This document shows positions 1,678-23,234 of a DNA stretch of 34,364 nt, in pieces. Numbering within the stretch: position 1 is the stretch's first letter; every line of letters starts with the position of its first letter. The notes below the pieces were generated by a model. The model did not search any database. It was given only the letters and a program-made list of their open reading frames with translations, and was not told the DNA's origin. Origin of the DNA: Acholeplasmataceae bacterium (GTDB lineage: Bacteria; Bacillota; Negativicutes; Acidaminococcales; Acidaminococcaceae); assembly GCA_012517145.1 (NCBI GenBank), contig JAAYVM010000118.1, positions 1 to 34,364 on the forward strand, read 5' to 3'. A program made the position numbers and the translations under genes.

Positions 1678-2784
1678 TTAAACGTTGAAACGGAATTCGA
1701 CGACATCGCCGTCCTGCATGACATAGTCCTTGCCCTCAAGACGCACCAGGCCTTTTTCACGAGCAGCAGCTTTGGAACCGCAAGCAACGAGATCCTTGTA
1801 GGAAACAATTTCTGCTCTAATAAAACCTCTCTCAAAATCGGTATGAATCTTACCTGCAGCTTGAGGAGCTTTGGTGCCACGCACAATGGTCCAGGCACGT
1901 ACTTCGATTTCGCCGGCCGTTATATAGGCCATCAGGCCAAGCAGTTTGAAACCTGCTTTGATGATTCTGTTCAGGCCAGGTTCTTCCAGTCCTGCCATAG
2001 CCAAAAATTCCTGTGCTTCATCTTCCGGCAATTCGGCAATCTCAGCCTCCATCTTAGCGGAAACAGCAATTGACTCAGCGCCTTCTTCAGCAGCATATTT
2101 TTGGACTGCCTGCACAAAAGGATTCTTCTCGGCATGCGCAACTTCGTCTTCGGCCACGTTCGTAATGTACAGGATAGGTTTCAACGTTAAAAGCTGTAAA
2201 GCTTTTACGAATTCCTTTTCCTCGTCTGTCAGATCAATACGGCGGGCAGGAATTGCTTCACCCAGACCTGCCAACACTTTTTCCAAGGCAGCTTTTTCCA
2301 GCGGTACTTTCTTGTCGCCGGCTTTCAGGAGTTTACCAAGGCGTTCGATGCGCTTTTCGACGCTCTCCATGTCAGCCAGGCAAAGCTCGGTATTAATTAT
2401 TTCAATGTCACGCAAAGGATCAATCGTGCCTTCTACGTGGGTAATATTGCCATCCTCGAAACAACGCACTACCTGTGCGATGGCGTCAACTTCGCGGATA
2501 TGTGCCAAGAATTTGTTGCCAAGGCCTTCACCTGTTGAAGCGCCTTTGACCAAACCTGCAATATCAACAAAACGCATTGCTGCCGGCACAATCTTTTTGG
2601 CTTTGACCATATCGCTCAAAACTTTTAAACGTGTATCTGGAACATCAACAACGCCGACATTCGGCTCTATAGTACAAAATGGATAATTGGCTGCTTCCGC
2701 GCCGGCTTTGGTAATAGCATTAAACAACGTGCTCTTGCCAACATTCGGCAAACCAACAATCCCTACTTCTAAATTCGTGCTCAC
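1678..2784 (-). CDS. ychF: Redox-regulated ATPase YchF (OLA1 family)
   Basis: This is a TRAFAC-class P-loop NTPase of 368 residues. GLPNVGKSTLF near the N terminus is the Walker A motif, FVDIAGLVKGAS the G3 region, and NVAEDE stands in place of the GTPase NKxD motif, which is why YchF/OLA1 proteins prefer ATP over GTP. A central helical insertion follows the G domain, and a TGS domain fills about the last 85 residues (AAGKIHTDFERGFIRAEIV onward). The family binds ribosomes and is linked to stress and redox control of translation. An ATG exists at 2790 but sits only 2 nt from AAGGAG; the GTG two codons later has an 8-nt spacing and gives the usual N terminus MSTNLEVGIVG, so I chose 2784. The gene is probably monocistronic: it has a terminator downstream and a possible promoter upstream. 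Confidence 0.95.
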   Translation of the reverse strand: MSTNLEVGIVGLPNVGKSTLFNAITKAGAEAANYPFCTIEPNVGVVDVPDTRLKVLSDMVKAKKIVPAAMRFVDIAGLVKGASTGEGLGNKFLAHIREVDAIAQVVRCFEDGNITHVEGTIDPLRDIEIINTELCLADMESVEKRIERLGKLLKAGDKKVPLEKAALEKVLAGLGEAIPARRIDLTDEEKEFVKALQLLTLKPILYITNVAEDEVAHAEKNPFVQAVQKYAAEEGAESIAVSAKMEAEIAELPEDEAQEFLAMAGLEEPGLNRIIKAGFKLLGLMAYITAGEIEVRAWTIVRGTKAPQAAGKIHTDFERGFIRAEIVSYKDLVACGSKAAAREKGLVRLEGKDYVMQDGDVVEFRFNV

Positions 2785-2817
2785 TAACATCTCTCCTTAA
2801 ATTTTATCTGATATATA

Positions 2818-2846
2818 ATTTTACTTCATCGAAGGATATTGTGCAA
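2818..2846 (-). promoter_or_regulatory. Possible ychF promoter
   Basis: On the minus strand TTGCAC, a 17-nt spacer and TAAAAT lie about 30 nt upstream of the ychF start. The -10 box is a good match and the -35 box a weak one. Confidence 0.35.
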
Positions 2847-3048: not shown

Positions 3049-3064
3049 TATTTCCCGGGAAATA
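3049..3064. promoter_or_regulatory. Candidate Noc-binding site (NBS)
   Basis: TATTTCCCGGGAAATA is a perfect 16-bp palindrome lying 9 nt after the GNAT stop codon. Its 14-bp core is identical, as I recall it, to the Noc-binding consensus defined in Bacillus subtilis (ATTTCCCGGGAAAT). A Noc homologue with the matching DNA-specificity residues is encoded at 14303-15178. The site is not placed like an operator, since it lies downstream of one gene and far from the next promoter. That fits the dispersed, non-promoter placement of NBS sites. Confidence 0.7.
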
Positions 3065-3072
3065 CTGATTCT

Positions 3073-3573
3073 TCAGATTTTTTTATATTCTTTCAGCTGC
3101 AGCGTATAAAAGGCCAGACTGAGCCATTGGTCAAATTTGTAGCCCACATTGTGAGTCACACCGGCCAGTTCAAAGCCCAGTTTTTCACAAAGTTTTTTAC
3201 TGGCTGCGTTGCCATAACTGATGCAGGCCAATGCAGTATAAAGCTCATAGTTCTCCAGTTCCTTAAGCAATGCTTTCATAATTTCCATGCCACGCCCGCC
3301 ACCACAGTGTGCCTGATCAAAATAAGCGGACAACTCGACAGAAACATTAAAAGCCTCCCTCTCTCGGAACTTGCCGGCATAAGCATAACCAATTACTTCC
3401 CCATTTTCTTCATACACCAGCCAGGGAAACTGTGCAGATATTTTATTGATCCTTCTCAGCATCTCTGCTTCGTCAGGCAAAGTTATTTCATAAGTAATGG
3501 TAGTATTTGCTACATACCAACTGTAAATTTCTGTAATTCTTTTGGCGTCCTCCGGACATACCGCACGAATCAT
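3073..3573 (-). CDS. GNAT-family N-acetyltransferase (phosphinothricin acetyltransferase-like)
   Basis: This 166-residue acetyl-CoA-dependent N-acyltransferase has the GNAT fold. It begins MIRAVCPEDAKRITEIYSWY as in the Pat/Bar subgroup. A Gly-rich acetyl-CoA loop (QAHCGGGRGMEIM) occurs near residue 90, and ISYGNAASKKLCEKLGFELAG near residue 120 is the motif B region. VGYKFDQWL near the end is also typical of this subgroup. The natural substrate is unknown; relatives act on methionine sulfoximine, phosphinothricin or other amino compounds. GGGGG lies 7 nt before the ATG. The stop codon follows a run of seven A residues, and the -1 frame stays open for about 60 further codons past the stop (see findings). 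Length compared with the family says the 166-residue form is already complete. Confidence 0.85.
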   Translation of the reverse strand: MIRAVCPEDAKRITEIYSWYVANTTITYEITLPDEAEMLRRINKISAQFPWLVYEENGEVIGYAYAGKFREREAFNVSVELSAYFDQAHCGGGRGMEIMKALLKELENYELYTALACISYGNAASKKLCEKLGFELAGVTHNVGYKFDQWLSLAFYTLQLKEYKKI

Positions 3574-12402: not shown

Positions 12403-13380
12403 TCATACATTAAGTTTTTGTATTTTTTTCAAAGAACTATCAAGTGCTTGAGCCCTTTCCTCCAATAATTCGTAAATTCTCTCCAAATCATCCAAGGAAT
12501 AATACTCTATCTCGATTTTGCCACTTTTCTCAGTCTTTTTGACCACTTTGACCTTAGTTCCTAAAACTGACATCATTTTATTTTGGAAATCAGCGTAAAA
12601 AACATCCGGACTTTCTTTCGCCTTGGTCGTTTTAGTCTTTTTAACGCTATTTTCCTTTTTCTCCTGTACCGGTTCATCCTCAATCAAAGATTCAATGTCG
12701 CGGCCTTCTTTATATTCTTTGACGACATCCTCTACTTTGCGGACGCTCCAGCCTTTGGTAATTATTGTCTGGGCAAGCAAAATTTGTTTTGCCTCATCTT
12801 CTATTACCAATAGCGGTCTTACTTGTCCTAAAGTCAGCTCTTCTTTGGAAATATATTCACGTATTTTAGCAGGCAGATTCAAAAGCCTGAGGATATTGGT
12901 GACTGCAGTACGGCTGCGGCCTAATTTTTTTGCCGCATCAGCCTGTGTCAGCTGAAGTTTGTCCATCATCGCTTTTATTCCCTCGGCCTCTTCCAAAGGG
13001 TTGAGATCATGACGTTGAATATTCTCTATCATGGCTACTTCCATCATAGCTTCTTCGTCATAATCGCGTATCACAACCGGTACAGCTTTCAGACCTGCAG
13101 TTTTGGCCGCACGCCAACGCCTTTCACCGGCAACAATTTCGTAACGATTGCCGCTTTTGCGTACGATAAGCGGCTGGATTACGCCATGTTGTTTGACGGA
13201 GTCTACTAACTCCTTCATTTTCTCAGGTTCAAAGACTTTACGCGGTTGATAGGGATTCGGTACTAAGTCCGTTACATCAATTTCTTGTTTAACTTCATTT
13301 TCCGCTACTTCCGCACTTACATCTTCGGTGCTGCCGAAAAGAGCCTCCAAGCCTTTGCCCAAACCAGCGCGTTTATTCAT
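12403..13380 (-). CDS. parB: Chromosome partition protein ParB (Spo0J)
   Basis: This 325-residue CTP-dependent DNA clamp binds parS and spreads. It starts MNKRAGLGKGLEALFG, the N-terminal motif (LGKGL) that stimulates the Soj ATPase. The CTP-binding domain contains NPYQPRKVFEP and GERRWRAAK, followed by MIENIQRHDLNPLEEA. The helix-turn-helix is LTQADAAKKLGRSRTAVTN. At the four positions known to separate ParB from Noc it has Arg (RSRT), Ile, Asn and Gly (LTLGQ), which is the ParB side at the first and fourth. The C-terminal dimerisation domain follows a charged linker rich in Lys. The ATG overlaps the soj 3' end by 8 nt and AGGAGG lies 8 nt upstream, so soj and parB are coupled. Confidence 0.95.
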   Translation of the reverse strand: MNKRAGLGKGLEALFGSTEDVSAEVAENEVKQEIDVTDLVPNPYQPRKVFEPEKMKELVDSVKQHGVIQPLIVRKSGNRYEIVAGERRWRAAKTAGLKAVPVVIRDYDEEAMMEVAMIENIQRHDLNPLEEAEGIKAMMDKLQLTQADAAKKLGRSRTAVTNILRLLNLPAKIREYISKEELTLGQVRPLLVIEDEAKQILLAQTIITKGWSVRKVEDVVKEYKEGRDIESLIEDEPVQEKKENSVKKTKTTKAKESPDVFYADFQNKMMSVLGTKVKVVKKTEKSGKIEIEYYSLDDLERIYELLEERAQALDSSLKKIQKLNV

Positions 13381-14134
13381 CTCCGATAACCTCCTGTGCC
13401 AATTCTTGATAAACCTGTGCACCTTTGGACTTGGCATCATAAACAATGACAGGCTGTCCGTGGCTTGGTGCTTCGCTTAATCTGATATTGCGCGGTATTA
13501 TCGTATTGTACATTTTAGCATTGAAGTATTTCTTTACTTCACCAACAACATCACTGGAGAGATTAGTACGCGCATCAAACATCGTCATAACCGCTCCTTC
13601 AAGTTTCAAGGCCGGATTGAGATTGCGTTGTACCAGCTGAATGGTATTCATCAATTGAGTTACGCCTTCTAAGGCATAGAATTCACATTGAATTGGAACC
13701 AATACAGAGCTCGCAGCGGTAAGCGCATTTAAAGTCAAAAGTCCTAATGACGGTGGGCAGTCAATCAAAACATAATCATATTCATGTTTAACCCTGTCCA
13801 AGGCACGTTTCAATCTGCCTTCCCTGCTCATTACGGAAACAAGCTCAAGTTCGGCGCCAGCAAGTTGTATGGTGGCCGGCAGAACCCATAGGTTCTCATA
13901 TTCGCTCTTCATTATGACTTCTGACATCGGTGTGCCATTAATTAAAACATCATAGATGCATTTTTTTATATAATTTTTTTCAAAGCCAAGGCCACTGGTA
14001 GAATTGCCTTGTGGATCACTGTCTATCAGTAATACCTTGCGGCCCTTAGCTGCCAGGCAAGCTGCCAGGTTTACAGCGGTTGTTGTTTTGCCAACGCCGC
14101 CTTTCTGGTTTGCAATGGCGATTACTTTAACCAA
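13373..14134 (-). CDS. soj: Chromosome partition ATPase Soj (ParA)
   Basis: This ParA-type deviant Walker ATPase of about 253 residues dimerises with ATP on DNA and drives segregation with ParB. It also controls DnaA in Bacillus. IANQKGGVGKTTTAVNLAA is the P-loop with the signature Lys; DSDPQGNSTSGLG and VLIDCPPSLGLLTLNAL are the switch motifs. Near the C terminus, IPRNIRLSEAPSHGQP is typical of Soj. Three in-frame starts are close together: GTG 14143, ATG 14140 and TTG 14134. AGAGG lies 8 nt before the TTG but only 2 nt before the ATG, so I favour TTG, giving MVKVIAIANQKGG. Between this start and noc lies a parS palindrome. Confidence 0.93.
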   Translation of the reverse strand: MVKVIAIANQKGGVGKTTTAVNLAACLAAKGRKVLLIDSDPQGNSTSGLGFEKNYIKKCIYDVLINGTPMSEVIMKSEYENLWVLPATIQLAGAELELVSVMSREGRLKRALDRVKHEYDYVLIDCPPSLGLLTLNALTAASSVLVPIQCEFYALEGVTQLMNTIQLVQRNLNPALKLEGAVMTMFDARTNLSSDVVGEVKKYFNAKMYNTIIPRNIRLSEAPSHGQPVIVYDAKSKGAQVYQELAQEVIGDE

Positions 14135-14238
14135 GACCATCACCTCTCATTCGTTCCATTAGTTAATATTGTTTTACCGACTACTATATTCTACCATAAT
14201 TTATGCTTCATATATTAAAAAATATCATTTTGCCAAAG

Positions 14239-14276
14239 AAAAAAGTCAATGTTTCACGTGAAACATTGACTTTTTT
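14239..14276. promoter_or_regulatory. parS: parS site inside a 38-bp perfect palindrome (also terminator-like)
   Basis: TGTTTCACGTGAAACA at 14250-14265 is identical to the parS consensus. The symmetry continues perfectly on both sides through GTCAA/TTGAC to A6 and T6 ends, making 19-bp arms without a loop-forming spacer. The T run after the stem on either strand makes it look like a bidirectional terminator. It lies between the noc stop and soj, which are both transcribed leftward, so in RNA it would end the noc transcript. Confidence 0.95.
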
Positions 14277-14302: not shown

Positions 14303-15178
14303 TTATGAGTGCAATTTTGATTTCTTTGTATTCTTAATATGGAGAGTGACAATAACATCATCACCTTCCAGCTTTTGTTCAACCTTGACCGGAATGCCGG
14401 AAACTTCCATATTTTTAGTAATTTGTTTAATGCTATTCAGATAGATCCTGACATCCTGGATAATCATCAATCTCTTAGTTTTCTTAAGCTTAGCTGAATC
14501 CTGATGCTCTTCAATATAATGTTCAATGTACTTTTCAGCTTGTCTTACATTGTAACCGTTCTTTGTAATTTCATCAATAACATTAATTTGATCTTCTTCA
14601 GTGGTAAGTCTGAGCAAAGCACGCGCATGTCTTTCAGTCAGTCCCTGTTCTTTTAACAGCTTCCTTACCCTCTCTGTCAATTTCAGAAGACGCAGCTTGT
14701 TGGCAATAGTAGATTGCTTCTTACCGACACGACTCGCCATTGATTCCTGAGTAAGATGGAACTGGTCCATCAGTTTCTCATAACCATCAGCTTCTTCCAA
14801 ATAATGCAGGTCTTCTCGCTGCAAGTTTTCGATTAACGCAATCTCAGCAATTTGCTGAGAAGTATAATCACTGATTATAACCGGCACCAGAGACAGATTA
14901 GCCAGCTTGGAAGCGCGCAGTCTGCGTTCTCCAGCTATCAGCATATACCGTCCGTCACCCATAGGTGCAACCAGAAGCGGCTGCAATACACCATATTGGC
15001 TTATGGAATGCGCTAGTTCGGCCAAGGCTTCAGGCTCAAAATGTTTACGTGGCTGATACGGATTAGCTTCGATATTCTGCACCGGAACCTGAACAACACT
15101 AACTTCTGCTGAAGCTGAAACATCTTCCCCTAAAAGATTCGCTGCATCTAGATAAGCAAATTCATCATCAATAACCAT
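14303..15178 (-). CDS. noc: Nucleoid occlusion protein Noc (ParB family)
   Basis: This 291-residue ParB-family protein has the CTP-binding domain (NPYQPRKHFEP, IAGERRLRASK, LIENLQREDLHYLEEA). Its helix-turn-helix and linker contain KKQSTIANKLRLLKL and LTERHARALLRL. Against the Caulobacter ParB numbering used for specificity work, these give Gln173, Lys179, Lys184 and Arg201, the Noc set for NBS binding. The separate ParB at 12403-13380 makes a duplicate role unlikely. B. subtilis Noc begins with a basic amphipathic helix that binds membrane. Here the first 30 residues (MVIDDEFAYLDAANLLGEDV) are acidic, and the upstream in-frame sequence offers no such helix. GGGAGGGAG precedes the ATG by about 8-11 nt. 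The gene follows rsmG by 23 nt, the standard Firmicutes position for noc. Confidence 0.93.
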   Translation of the reverse strand: MVIDDEFAYLDAANLLGEDVSASAEVSVVQVPVQNIEANPYQPRKHFEPEALAELAHSISQYGVLQPLLVAPMGDGRYMLIAGERRLRASKLANLSLVPVIISDYTSQQIAEIALIENLQREDLHYLEEADGYEKLMDQFHLTQESMASRVGKKQSTIANKLRLLKLTERVRKLLKEQGLTERHARALLRLTTEEDQINVIDEITKNGYNVRQAEKYIEHYIEEHQDSAKLKKTKRLMIIQDVRIYLNSIKQITKNMEVSGIPVKVEQKLEGDDVIVTLHIKNTKKSKLHS

Positions 15179-15201: not shown

Positions 15202-15915
15202 TTACAGTGGCTGCTTTTCCGGCAATCCAGCTTTACGCGGATATTTAGCCGGAGTTCTTTTGATCCTACGGATTTTTATAATCGCTCTGCCATCATCGAG
15301 ACCAGGGAGTTTGACTTCTTCCGCAGAAACAATTTCTCCTCCCAAAATACTAACAGCAGTAAGGCCTTCAGTAATCTCTTCCTTAAATTTCGAACCTTTC
15401 ATCGCAATGAAATAGCCGCCCTGTTTGACAAGCGGCAAACAGTACTCAGACAAAACGGATAATCTTGCTACAGCGCGTGCGGTTACTAAGTCATATTTCT
15501 CTCGGTGATCCTTGTTTTGTCCTGCATCCTCTGCCCGCAAATGAACACAGGAAATATCTTCGAGTCCGAGCCTCTCGATAACAGTCTGCAAAAACTTCAG
15601 CCTTTTAGCCAAAGAGTCCAAAAGTACTACTTTTAATTCAGGACAATAAATTTTGAGAGGAATGCCGGGAAAACCAGCGCCTGTGCCAACATCAGCCAGC
15701 AATTTCCCAGGAAATATCTTTTCGTCATAAGCCAACAGCGAATCAATGATATGTTTAACGGCAACTTCTTCAGGTTCGGTTATTGCAGTCAGATTCATAA
15801 CCTTATTGGTCTCAATCAAAAGATCAAAATACAAGGAAAACTGTTCCAACTGTTTTTCAGTAAATACCAGTCCAGCTTCCTTCCCTTTACTGATCAAAGC
15901 CTCCAAAAAAGTCAT
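15202..15915 (-). CDS. rsmG: 16S rRNA (guanine527-N7)-methyltransferase RsmG
   Basis: This 237-residue SAM-dependent methyltransferase (GidB) modifies G527 in the 530 loop of 16S rRNA. NKVMNLTAITEPEEVAVKHI is the N-terminal RsmG signature. DVGTGAGFPGIPLKI (near residue 78) is the SAM-binding glycine loop, and TARAVARLSVLSEYCLPL a further conserved block. It ends with a basic tail. The ATG overlaps the mnmG stop codon (ATGA), with GGGAG 9 nt upstream inside mnmG, so translation is probably coupled. Loss-of-function changes in this family give low-level streptomycin resistance; here all motifs look intact. Confidence 0.96.
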   Translation of the reverse strand: MTFLEALISKGKEAGLVFTEKQLEQFSLYFDLLIETNKVMNLTAITEPEEVAVKHIIDSLLAYDEKIFPGKLLADVGTGAGFPGIPLKIYCPELKVVLLDSLAKRLKFLQTVIERLGLEDISCVHLRAEDAGQNKDHREKYDLVTARAVARLSVLSEYCLPLVKQGGYFIAMKGSKFKEEITEGLTAVSILGGEIVSAEEVKLPGLDDGRAIIKIRRIKRTPAKYPRKAGLPEKQPL

Positions 15916-21794: not shown

Positions 21795-21833
21795 TCTGCT
21801 ACTCAACAAATCTAAATTGAAAGGATGGATAGA

Positions 21834-23234
21834 ATGCAAACGAATAACTTGGCCGACGTTTGGGACGAATTTTTAGGGTATGTTAATAATAACAGCAAAA
21901 ACCCAGGATACGTCAACTGGATTAAAGCCGCCCTACCTTTGTCCATGAACGAGGATACCTTCGAAATAGGTGTAGAAAAACTATTTATCAAGGAATGGAT
22001 CGAATCACGTTATTCGGCTGAAATAGAAAAAACTCTTTCTACTCTGACCGGCAGACCTCTTAATTTAATTGTAACAAATATGGATACACCAAAAACTGAC
22101 GAAGCTGTTAACTACAAACCAGAAATAGTAGTTGAAGAACAGCCTGCGGCCGGCAAGCAGGAAAAGAACAGCGTCAATAATGAATCCATAAGAGTTTCTT
22201 CGGAAAATTTCGAAAGCAATCTTAATTCCAAATATCTCTTTGAAAATTTCGTTATAGGCAATTCTAACCGCTTTGCCCATGCTGCTGCACTCGCGGTAGC
22301 AGAAGCACCGGCAAAGGTTTATAATCCCCTCTTTTTGTATGGCGATGTTGGTCTTGGCAAAACACACTTGATGCATGCCATTGGCAATCGTGTTAAACAA
22401 AAATATCCGGAAATGAAGGTCCTCTATATTTCCAGCGAAACTTTCACGAACGAAATGATTTTTTCTATTCAAAAGAATTCCATGGAAGCTTTCCGCAATA
22501 AATACCGCAATATTGACTGCCTTTTAATTGACGATATCCAATTTCTGCGTAAAAAAGAAAGTACACAGGAAGAGTTTTTCCATACCTTTAACGCTCTGCA
22601 CGACGCCAACAAACAAATAATCATCTCCAGTGACCGTAAACCAAAAGAAATTGAGACTCTGGAAAGCCGCCTGCGTTCACGTTTTGAATGGGGCCTGACA
22701 GCTGACGTCCAGGCACCTGACCTCGAAACCAGGATGGCAATTTTGAGAGAGAAAGCCGATCGCGAAGATATCATCATCCCAAATGATGTCATTCTTTTCA
22801 TTGCTTCTGCTATCGAAACTAATATCAGAGAAATTGAGGGCGCCTTTACAAGAGTATCCGCCTATGCTTCGTTCAACGGCGGCAAAATTACTCTTGAAGA
22901 AGCTAAGAAAGCTTTGTCAGAGTTAAACAATGAAAACAATAATAAACATATATCGGTTGAAGAAATTCAAAAGGTTGTTGCCAACTATTACAAGATAAAG
23001 AAAGAAGATTTTCTGGCTAAAAAAAGAACCCGTAATGTTGCCTACCCACGTCAAATTGCTATGTATATCTGTCGTGAAATGACAGACTACTCTTTGCCGC
23101 GTATTGGAGAATTTTTCGGCGGCCGTGATCATACTACTGTTATTCATGCCTGTGAAAAAATAGGCAAGGAGCGCAGGGAAGACGCTGAACTGGAAAAAAT
23201 CATCAAATCTTTCATGGCACAGCTAAAAAAATAA
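21834..23234 (+). CDS. dnaA: Chromosomal replication initiator DnaA
   Basis: This 466-residue AAA+ initiator opens oriC and recruits the helicase. The order is domain I (about 1-85, MQTNNLADVWDEFL), a variable linker rich in Glu/Asn (about 85-130), and the AAA+ domain III with Walker A GDVGLGKTHLMHAIG near residue 170 and Walker B LLIDDIQFL. Domain IV at the C terminus carries the DnaA-box helix-turn-helix, CREMTDYSLPRIGEFFGGRDHTTVIHACEKI. Walker A has Asp where Bacillus has Gly at the second position, which is probably neutral. The frame allows an ATG at 21825, but it abuts AAGG; the ATG at 21834 has AAGGA 8 nt upstream and gives the usual N terminus, so I chose it. Upstream lies the DnaA-box palindrome, downstream the DnaA-trio region. 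Confidence 0.97.
   Translation: MQTNNLADVWDEFLGYVNNNSKNPGYVNWIKAALPLSMNEDTFEIGVEKLFIKEWIESRYSAEIEKTLSTLTGRPLNLIVTNMDTPKTDEAVNYKPEIVVEEQPAAGKQEKNSVNNESIRVSSENFESNLNSKYLFENFVIGNSNRFAHAAALAVAEAPAKVYNPLFLYGDVGLGKTHLMHAIGNRVKQKYPEMKVLYISSETFTNEMIFSIQKNSMEAFRNKYRNIDCLLIDDIQFLRKKESTQEEFFHTFNALHDANKQIIISSDRKPKEIETLESRLRSRFEWGLTADVQAPDLETRMAILREKADREDIIIPNDVILFIASAIETNIREIEGAFTRVSAYASFNGGKITLEEAKKALSELNNENNNKHISVEEIQKVVANYYKIKKEDFLAKKRTRNVAYPRQIAMYICREMTDYSLPRIGEFFGGRDHTTVIHACEKIGKERREDAELEKIIKSFMAQLKK

Follow-up and report, generated by a model that had tools for sequence, protein, structure and literature searches.

To our knowledge, most work on NBS, the sites to which the nucleoid occlusion protein Noc binds, has concerned Bacillus and Staphylococcus. 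SlmA of Escherichia coli, an unrelated TetR-family protein that recognizes an unrelated DNA word, is no relative of Noc. The SlmA-SBS system is nevertheless similar in that nucleoid occlusion depends on DNA sites, which also have a similar distribution (PMC4331003). The terminus of the Bacillus chromosome is free of NBS, which turns Noc into a timer (PMC4331003). Membrane binding and nucleoid occlusion by B. subtilis Noc require an N-terminal amphipathic helix, which is disturbed when its flanking positive charges are inverted or negative charges are introduced on its hydrophobic face (PMC4331003; PMC8429893). Noc is a paralog of the clamp protein ParB (Spo0J), and four residues switch ParB from parS to NBS: Q173 reads the adenine at position 1 and R201 the cytosine at position 6, whereas one lysine, be it K179 or K184, is enough for binding to NBS (PMC7383237).

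The window analysed here is a stretch of 34,364 nucleotides (contig JAAYVM010000118.1) from a genome that carries the name Acholeplasmataceae bacterium and is assigned to Acidaminococcaceae in GTDB. It contains a candidate NBS in the following setting:

3049 to 3064, no strand: NBS-like palindrome TATTTCCCGGGAAATA, matching the consensus at 16/16 positions, between a GNAT gene and ychF
3073 to 3573, minus strand: GNAT-family acetyltransferase gene, with its stop codon 9 bp before the palindrome
1678 to 2790, minus strand: ychF GTPase gene (TIGR00092, 501 bits), downstream of the palindrome
2818 to 2845, minus strand: possible ychF promoter, TGCACA-16-TAAAAT, by consensus match only, about 205 bp from the palindrome
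21825 to 23234, plus strand: dnaA, a marker of the origin region

Read directly from the window, TATTTCCCGGGAAATA is its own reverse complement, as the preliminary description had claimed, and is identical at all 16 positions to the NBS consensus TATTTCCC-GGGAAATA (PMC7383237). It has the A at position 1 and the C at position 6 that are characteristic of NBS, in contrast to the G and A found at these positions of parS. We predict, with a probability of roughly 0.87, that Noc, whose gene lies 11 kb away, is loaded onto the chromosome at this palindrome, because near-perfect sites are in excess genome-wide, the site is conserved in position, such sites co-occur with noc and are depleted at the terminus in relatives, and this Noc has the specificity residues Q, K, K and R (hereafter QKKR).

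Given that the palindrome starts 9 bp past the GNAT stop codon and could form a short hairpin, it might instead be part of the transcription terminator of that gene. However, no run of T follows it on the minus strand, folding is no better than that of shuffled sequence on either strand (z = -0.91 and -0.04), a scan for terminator patterns calls none there, and the palindrome recurs in other genomes without a preceding GNAT gene. With both the folding and the pattern scans negative, this candidate was rejected, and its probability is negligible.

The frequency of the motif was assessed in the 2.47-Mb draft genome (220 contigs) from which the window derives, using the 14-mer ATTTCCCGGGAAAT as the search word and Markov models of order 0 to 5, trained on a 428-kb genome sample with the sites masked, for the expectations. 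The genome contains one exact site, seven one-mismatch sites and 15 two-mismatch sites, compared to 0.011-0.017, 0.45-0.89 and 8.7-17.3 expected, respectively. At one mismatch or less, 8 sites are thus observed against 0.46-0.90 expected (P = 5e-6), and the seven one-mismatch sites alone, leaving out the palindrome itself, are also significant (Poisson P = 4e-5). The preliminary description had named such a count among the observations that could overturn its proposal, and the proposal survives it. The reversed control word yields a single match at two mismatches or less in this genome, and of the 16 bases directly adjoining the 14-mers, to which the search was blind, 10 are those of the 16-bp consensus (P = 0.005). 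Counting motifs within the window alone proved uninformative (4 matches at up to three mismatches, with 2.2 expected). The near-perfect sites are fewer here than the approximately 70 Noc-bound NBS of B. subtilis (PMC4331003), which however were counted by binding, not by pattern, and may be imperfect.

These counts bear on the most general alternative, namely that the palindrome arose by chance or is the site of an unrelated protein and is common through base composition or codon usage. The two-mismatch class, with its 15 sites in this genome, shows no excess, and some of the sites encode ordinary tetrapeptides, FPGK or ISRE, both of which are compatible with this explanation. Nevertheless, only 0.01-0.02 exact sites are expected per genome, and the comparative data presented below, in which exact sites follow noc, a control palindrome sharing its core is rare and an intergenic copy is conserved amid diverged flanks, render such an origin very improbable.

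A survey of 252 Negativicutes genomes, all at least 90% complete, identified exact sites in 60 of the 80 genomes that encode noc (173 sites) but in only 21 of the 172 genomes that lack it (26 sites); the reversed control word is found in none of the 252. The correlation is clustered by family, with whole families devoid of noc, so that these counts are not phylogenetically independent. The exact sites in genomes without noc fit a chance origin, although other causes can be proposed for some of them. In genus g13, which belongs to the same family but lacks a detectable noc (G023, G061, G062, G064 and others), 5 exact sites are present in 8 genomes and are possibly relics of a recent loss of noc, whereas in the outlier G206, also with 5 exact sites, the noc gene may have been missed.

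The distribution of the sites along the origin-to-terminus axis, with dnaA as the origin marker, was examined in 8 complete or near-complete chromosomes of noc-encoding relatives from 8 genera. The 85 near-perfect sites fall into the four quarters from origin to terminus as 22, 28, 31 and 4, that is, in these 8 relatives (the genome of the window being a draft in 220 contigs) the terminus-proximal quarter holds 4 sites where 21 are expected (P = 7e-7). By contrast, the control palindrome TTATCCCGGGATAA, which has the same CCCGGG core, matches only 5 times in the 8 genomes, and 4 of these matches are in the terminus quarter. The scarcity near the terminus known from Bacillus, for which the preliminary description had suggested looking, is thus reproduced in the relatives. 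The same description considered an exact copy so close to the origin to be of note, a view that we do not share because in the relatives NBS occur throughout the first three quarters of the chromosome and are scarce only in the last one.

The region upstream of ychF provides evidence of positional conservation. In the nearest relative, G009, the identical 16-bp palindrome is located between a GNAT gene and ychF, 79 bp before ychF, and the 40-bp flanks of the two palindromes are only 25% and 33% identical. One-mismatch copies are found directly upstream of ychF in G004 (-79), G022 and G010 (both -111) and G038 (-139); G038 belongs to another family, and the preceding genes differ at all four of these sites. 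This recurrence speaks for a conserved, predicted loading site next to ychF.

Such a strong association with one gene, in six genomes, could also indicate an operator through which a transcription factor, or Noc itself, regulates ychF. The distances to the ychF start, however, vary (79, 79, 111, 111, 139 and 273 bp), and the site is positioned above the likely promoter rather than on it; in the relatives, the sites 79-139 bp upstream of ychF precede the probable -35 box by some 9-70 bp. Furthermore, seven of the eight near-perfect sites are elsewhere in the genome, with six of the eight within coding genes, many relatives that encode noc have no site at ychF (Phascolarctobacterium faecium G002 as well as G018, G001 and G016), and operators would not be expected to leave a gap at the terminus. 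An operator is therefore an improbable primary function. Because the palindrome precedes ychF, a regulatory side effect of a Noc loading site on this gene may exist. The statement in the preliminary description that the palindrome is not a promoter operator by position thus has only partial support, as the palindrome is upstream of ychF, by 260 bp in the window compared to 79-139 bp in the relatives. A 47-codon open reading frame on the minus strand of the intergenic region after the palindrome was considered as a regulated gene and discarded, given that it has no counterpart in G009, where only 79 bp separate the site from ychF.

The gene for the predicted partner protein is located in a neighborhood that includes a second candidate site:

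15702 to 15715, no strand: second NBS-like site ATTTCCCAGGAAAT, with one mismatch, inside rsmG and about 530 bp upstream of noc
15202 to 15915, minus strand: rsmG, the host gene of the second site, with 24 bp between its stop codon and the start of noc
14303 to 15178, minus strand: noc, encoding a ParB-family protein of 291 amino acids that starts MVIDDEFAYLDA and has the recognition residues QSTIANK..K..TERHAR
14250 to 14265, no strand: exact parS, TGTTTCACGTGAAACA, the site of the paralogous ParB
13373 to 14143, minus strand: parA (soj), identified by the Walker-type N-terminus AIANQKGGVGKTTTAVNLA and by position
12403 to 13446, minus strand: parB (spo0J)

The noc gene, about 11.2 kb from the palindrome, lies between rsmG and parA-parB, so that the gene order rsmG-noc-parA-parB is the same as in B. 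subtilis. The encoded protein scores 307.3 bits against TIGR04285, slightly below the cut-off of 315, compared to 230.8 bits for the ParB of the window. It reads GKKQSTIANKLRLLKL...TERHARAL, with Q173, K179, K184 and R201, all four NBS-specificity residues; the assertion that a Noc with the Noc-type residues is encoded 11 kb away was thus accurate. Q173, K179 and R201 are retained in all 41 Noc proteins examined, whereas the ParB of the window has R173 and G201. Alignment with Noc and ParB structures locates the CTP-pocket motifs GERRLRA and ENLQRED in the window Noc, and these correspond to the GERRxRA and ENLQRE sequences of the B. subtilis protein. The closest homolog (77%) comes from a MAG labelled Acholeplasmataceae, followed by Phascolarctobacterium and Succiniclasticum. 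This order of affinity suggests that the host is a member of Acidaminococcaceae (Negativicutes) and that the Acholeplasmataceae label is wrong. Noc proteins of the QKKR type are also encoded by Sporomusa-like Negativicutes and many Clostridia, that is, Noc is not confined to Bacilli; our search of the literature found no account of Noc in Negativicutes or Acidaminococcaceae.

Two side observations concern this gene neighborhood. The ParB of the window contains an unusual recognition segment, LTLGQVRPLL, where ParB proteins usually read GHAR. In addition, both the Noc and the ychF regions of a public MAG labelled Acholeplasmataceae (L136, JAAYIB010000007.1) are Acidaminococcaceae-like, and this label is probably wrong.

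In G009 (exact), G021, G018, G028 and G001, counterparts of the site in rsmG precede noc by 527-543 bp. All rsmG copies encode FPGK, yet they do so across two codon frames, which hints at selection at the DNA level. Codon choice could be partly responsible for the sites in rsmG (FPGK) as well as for those within noc itself (ISRE), and with such plausible peptides encoded, both groups of sites were set aside as indecisive with respect to DNA-level selection. The sites within noc are a feature of other Negativicutes families (L072, L076, L077, L083, L084, L173, L175 and L176), in which an NBS located at approximately +657 to +675 relative to the start of noc encodes (I/F)SRE in a variable linker.

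While the DNA-reading part of Noc is uniform, its N-terminus is not. The basic N-terminal amphipathic helix is absent in all 25 Acidaminococcaceae Noc proteins examined, that of the window and those of loci L046-L069, and each of the 25 begins instead with an acidic peptide (charge -1 to -6) around (D/E/Q)D(G/E)F, in fuller form (D/E/Q)D(G/E)Fxx(V/I/L)L. The N-terminus of the window Noc, MVIDDEFAYLDAAN, has a charge of -4 and no membrane helix of the Bacillus type; Phascolarctobacterium Noc begins with MFVDDGFSVLDT. There is neither room nor a start codon for a longer N-terminus in the window, where rsmG ends 24 bp upstream. In contrast, the Noc proteins of Sporomusa/Pelosinus-like Negativicutes, members of the same class with the same DNA specificity residues and NBS, retain a helix of the MKxFARFFGL type (for example, MKSFARFFGL; charge +1 to +3 in 11 genomes). 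Many clostridial Noc proteins start right before the conserved domain. As judged from these sequences, Acidaminococcaceae have kept the DNA half of the Noc system but lack the known effector half. Because none of the 25 proteins has the basic helix, nucleoid occlusion of the Bacillus type does not follow from the presence of the sites, and of the original suggestion that this organism employs the Bacillus word for nucleoid occlusion, the identity of the word stands, whereas the process itself is no more than a possible function here, because the helix on which it depends in B. subtilis is missing.

We infer a mechanism in which the initial steps are analogous to those in Bacillus and Geobacillus. 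A Noc dimer would read the site through Q173, contacting the adenine at position 1, and R201, contacting the cytosine at position 6, with the help of K179 and K184; CTP binding would then convert the dimer to a closed clamp able to slide along the flanking DNA, and each site would seed a local Noc-DNA complex. With sites everywhere but near the terminus, Noc would mark DNA that has not yet reached the end of replication. The output in Acidaminococcaceae is unlikely to be that of Bacillus unchanged, because the membrane-targeting helix is replaced by the acidic DGF-type peptide, which we would expect to dock a partner protein rather than the lipid bilayer. As a tentative proposal, to which we assign somewhat less than even odds, the DNA-reading half has remained unchanged since the split from Bacillus, whereas the membrane half was exchanged for an acidic docking peptide, such that NBS-loaded clamps act via a protein partner, possibly of the divisome or the initiation machinery, and not by pulling DNA to the membrane.

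If confirmed, the presence in another bacterial class of an identical DNA word that likewise avoids the terminus would support the view that the map of sites serves to time replication. That one family has lost the membrane hook would open to direct test whether Noc acts essentially by recruiting DNA to the membrane, or whether this is just one among several effects of a shared clamp that loads onto DNA.

Additional sites of related sequence were detected outside the family or with mixed features. An NBS-like site, either ATTTCCCGGGAAAT or CTTTCCCGGGAAAT, is common to clostridial relatives about 3.6 kb upstream of noc (L202, L203, L207, L209, L210, L212 and L215). Finally, TATTTCACGTGAAATA, at positions 29474-29489 of contig C50 of G000 (L011), is a hybrid that combines a parS-type core with NBS-type flanks.
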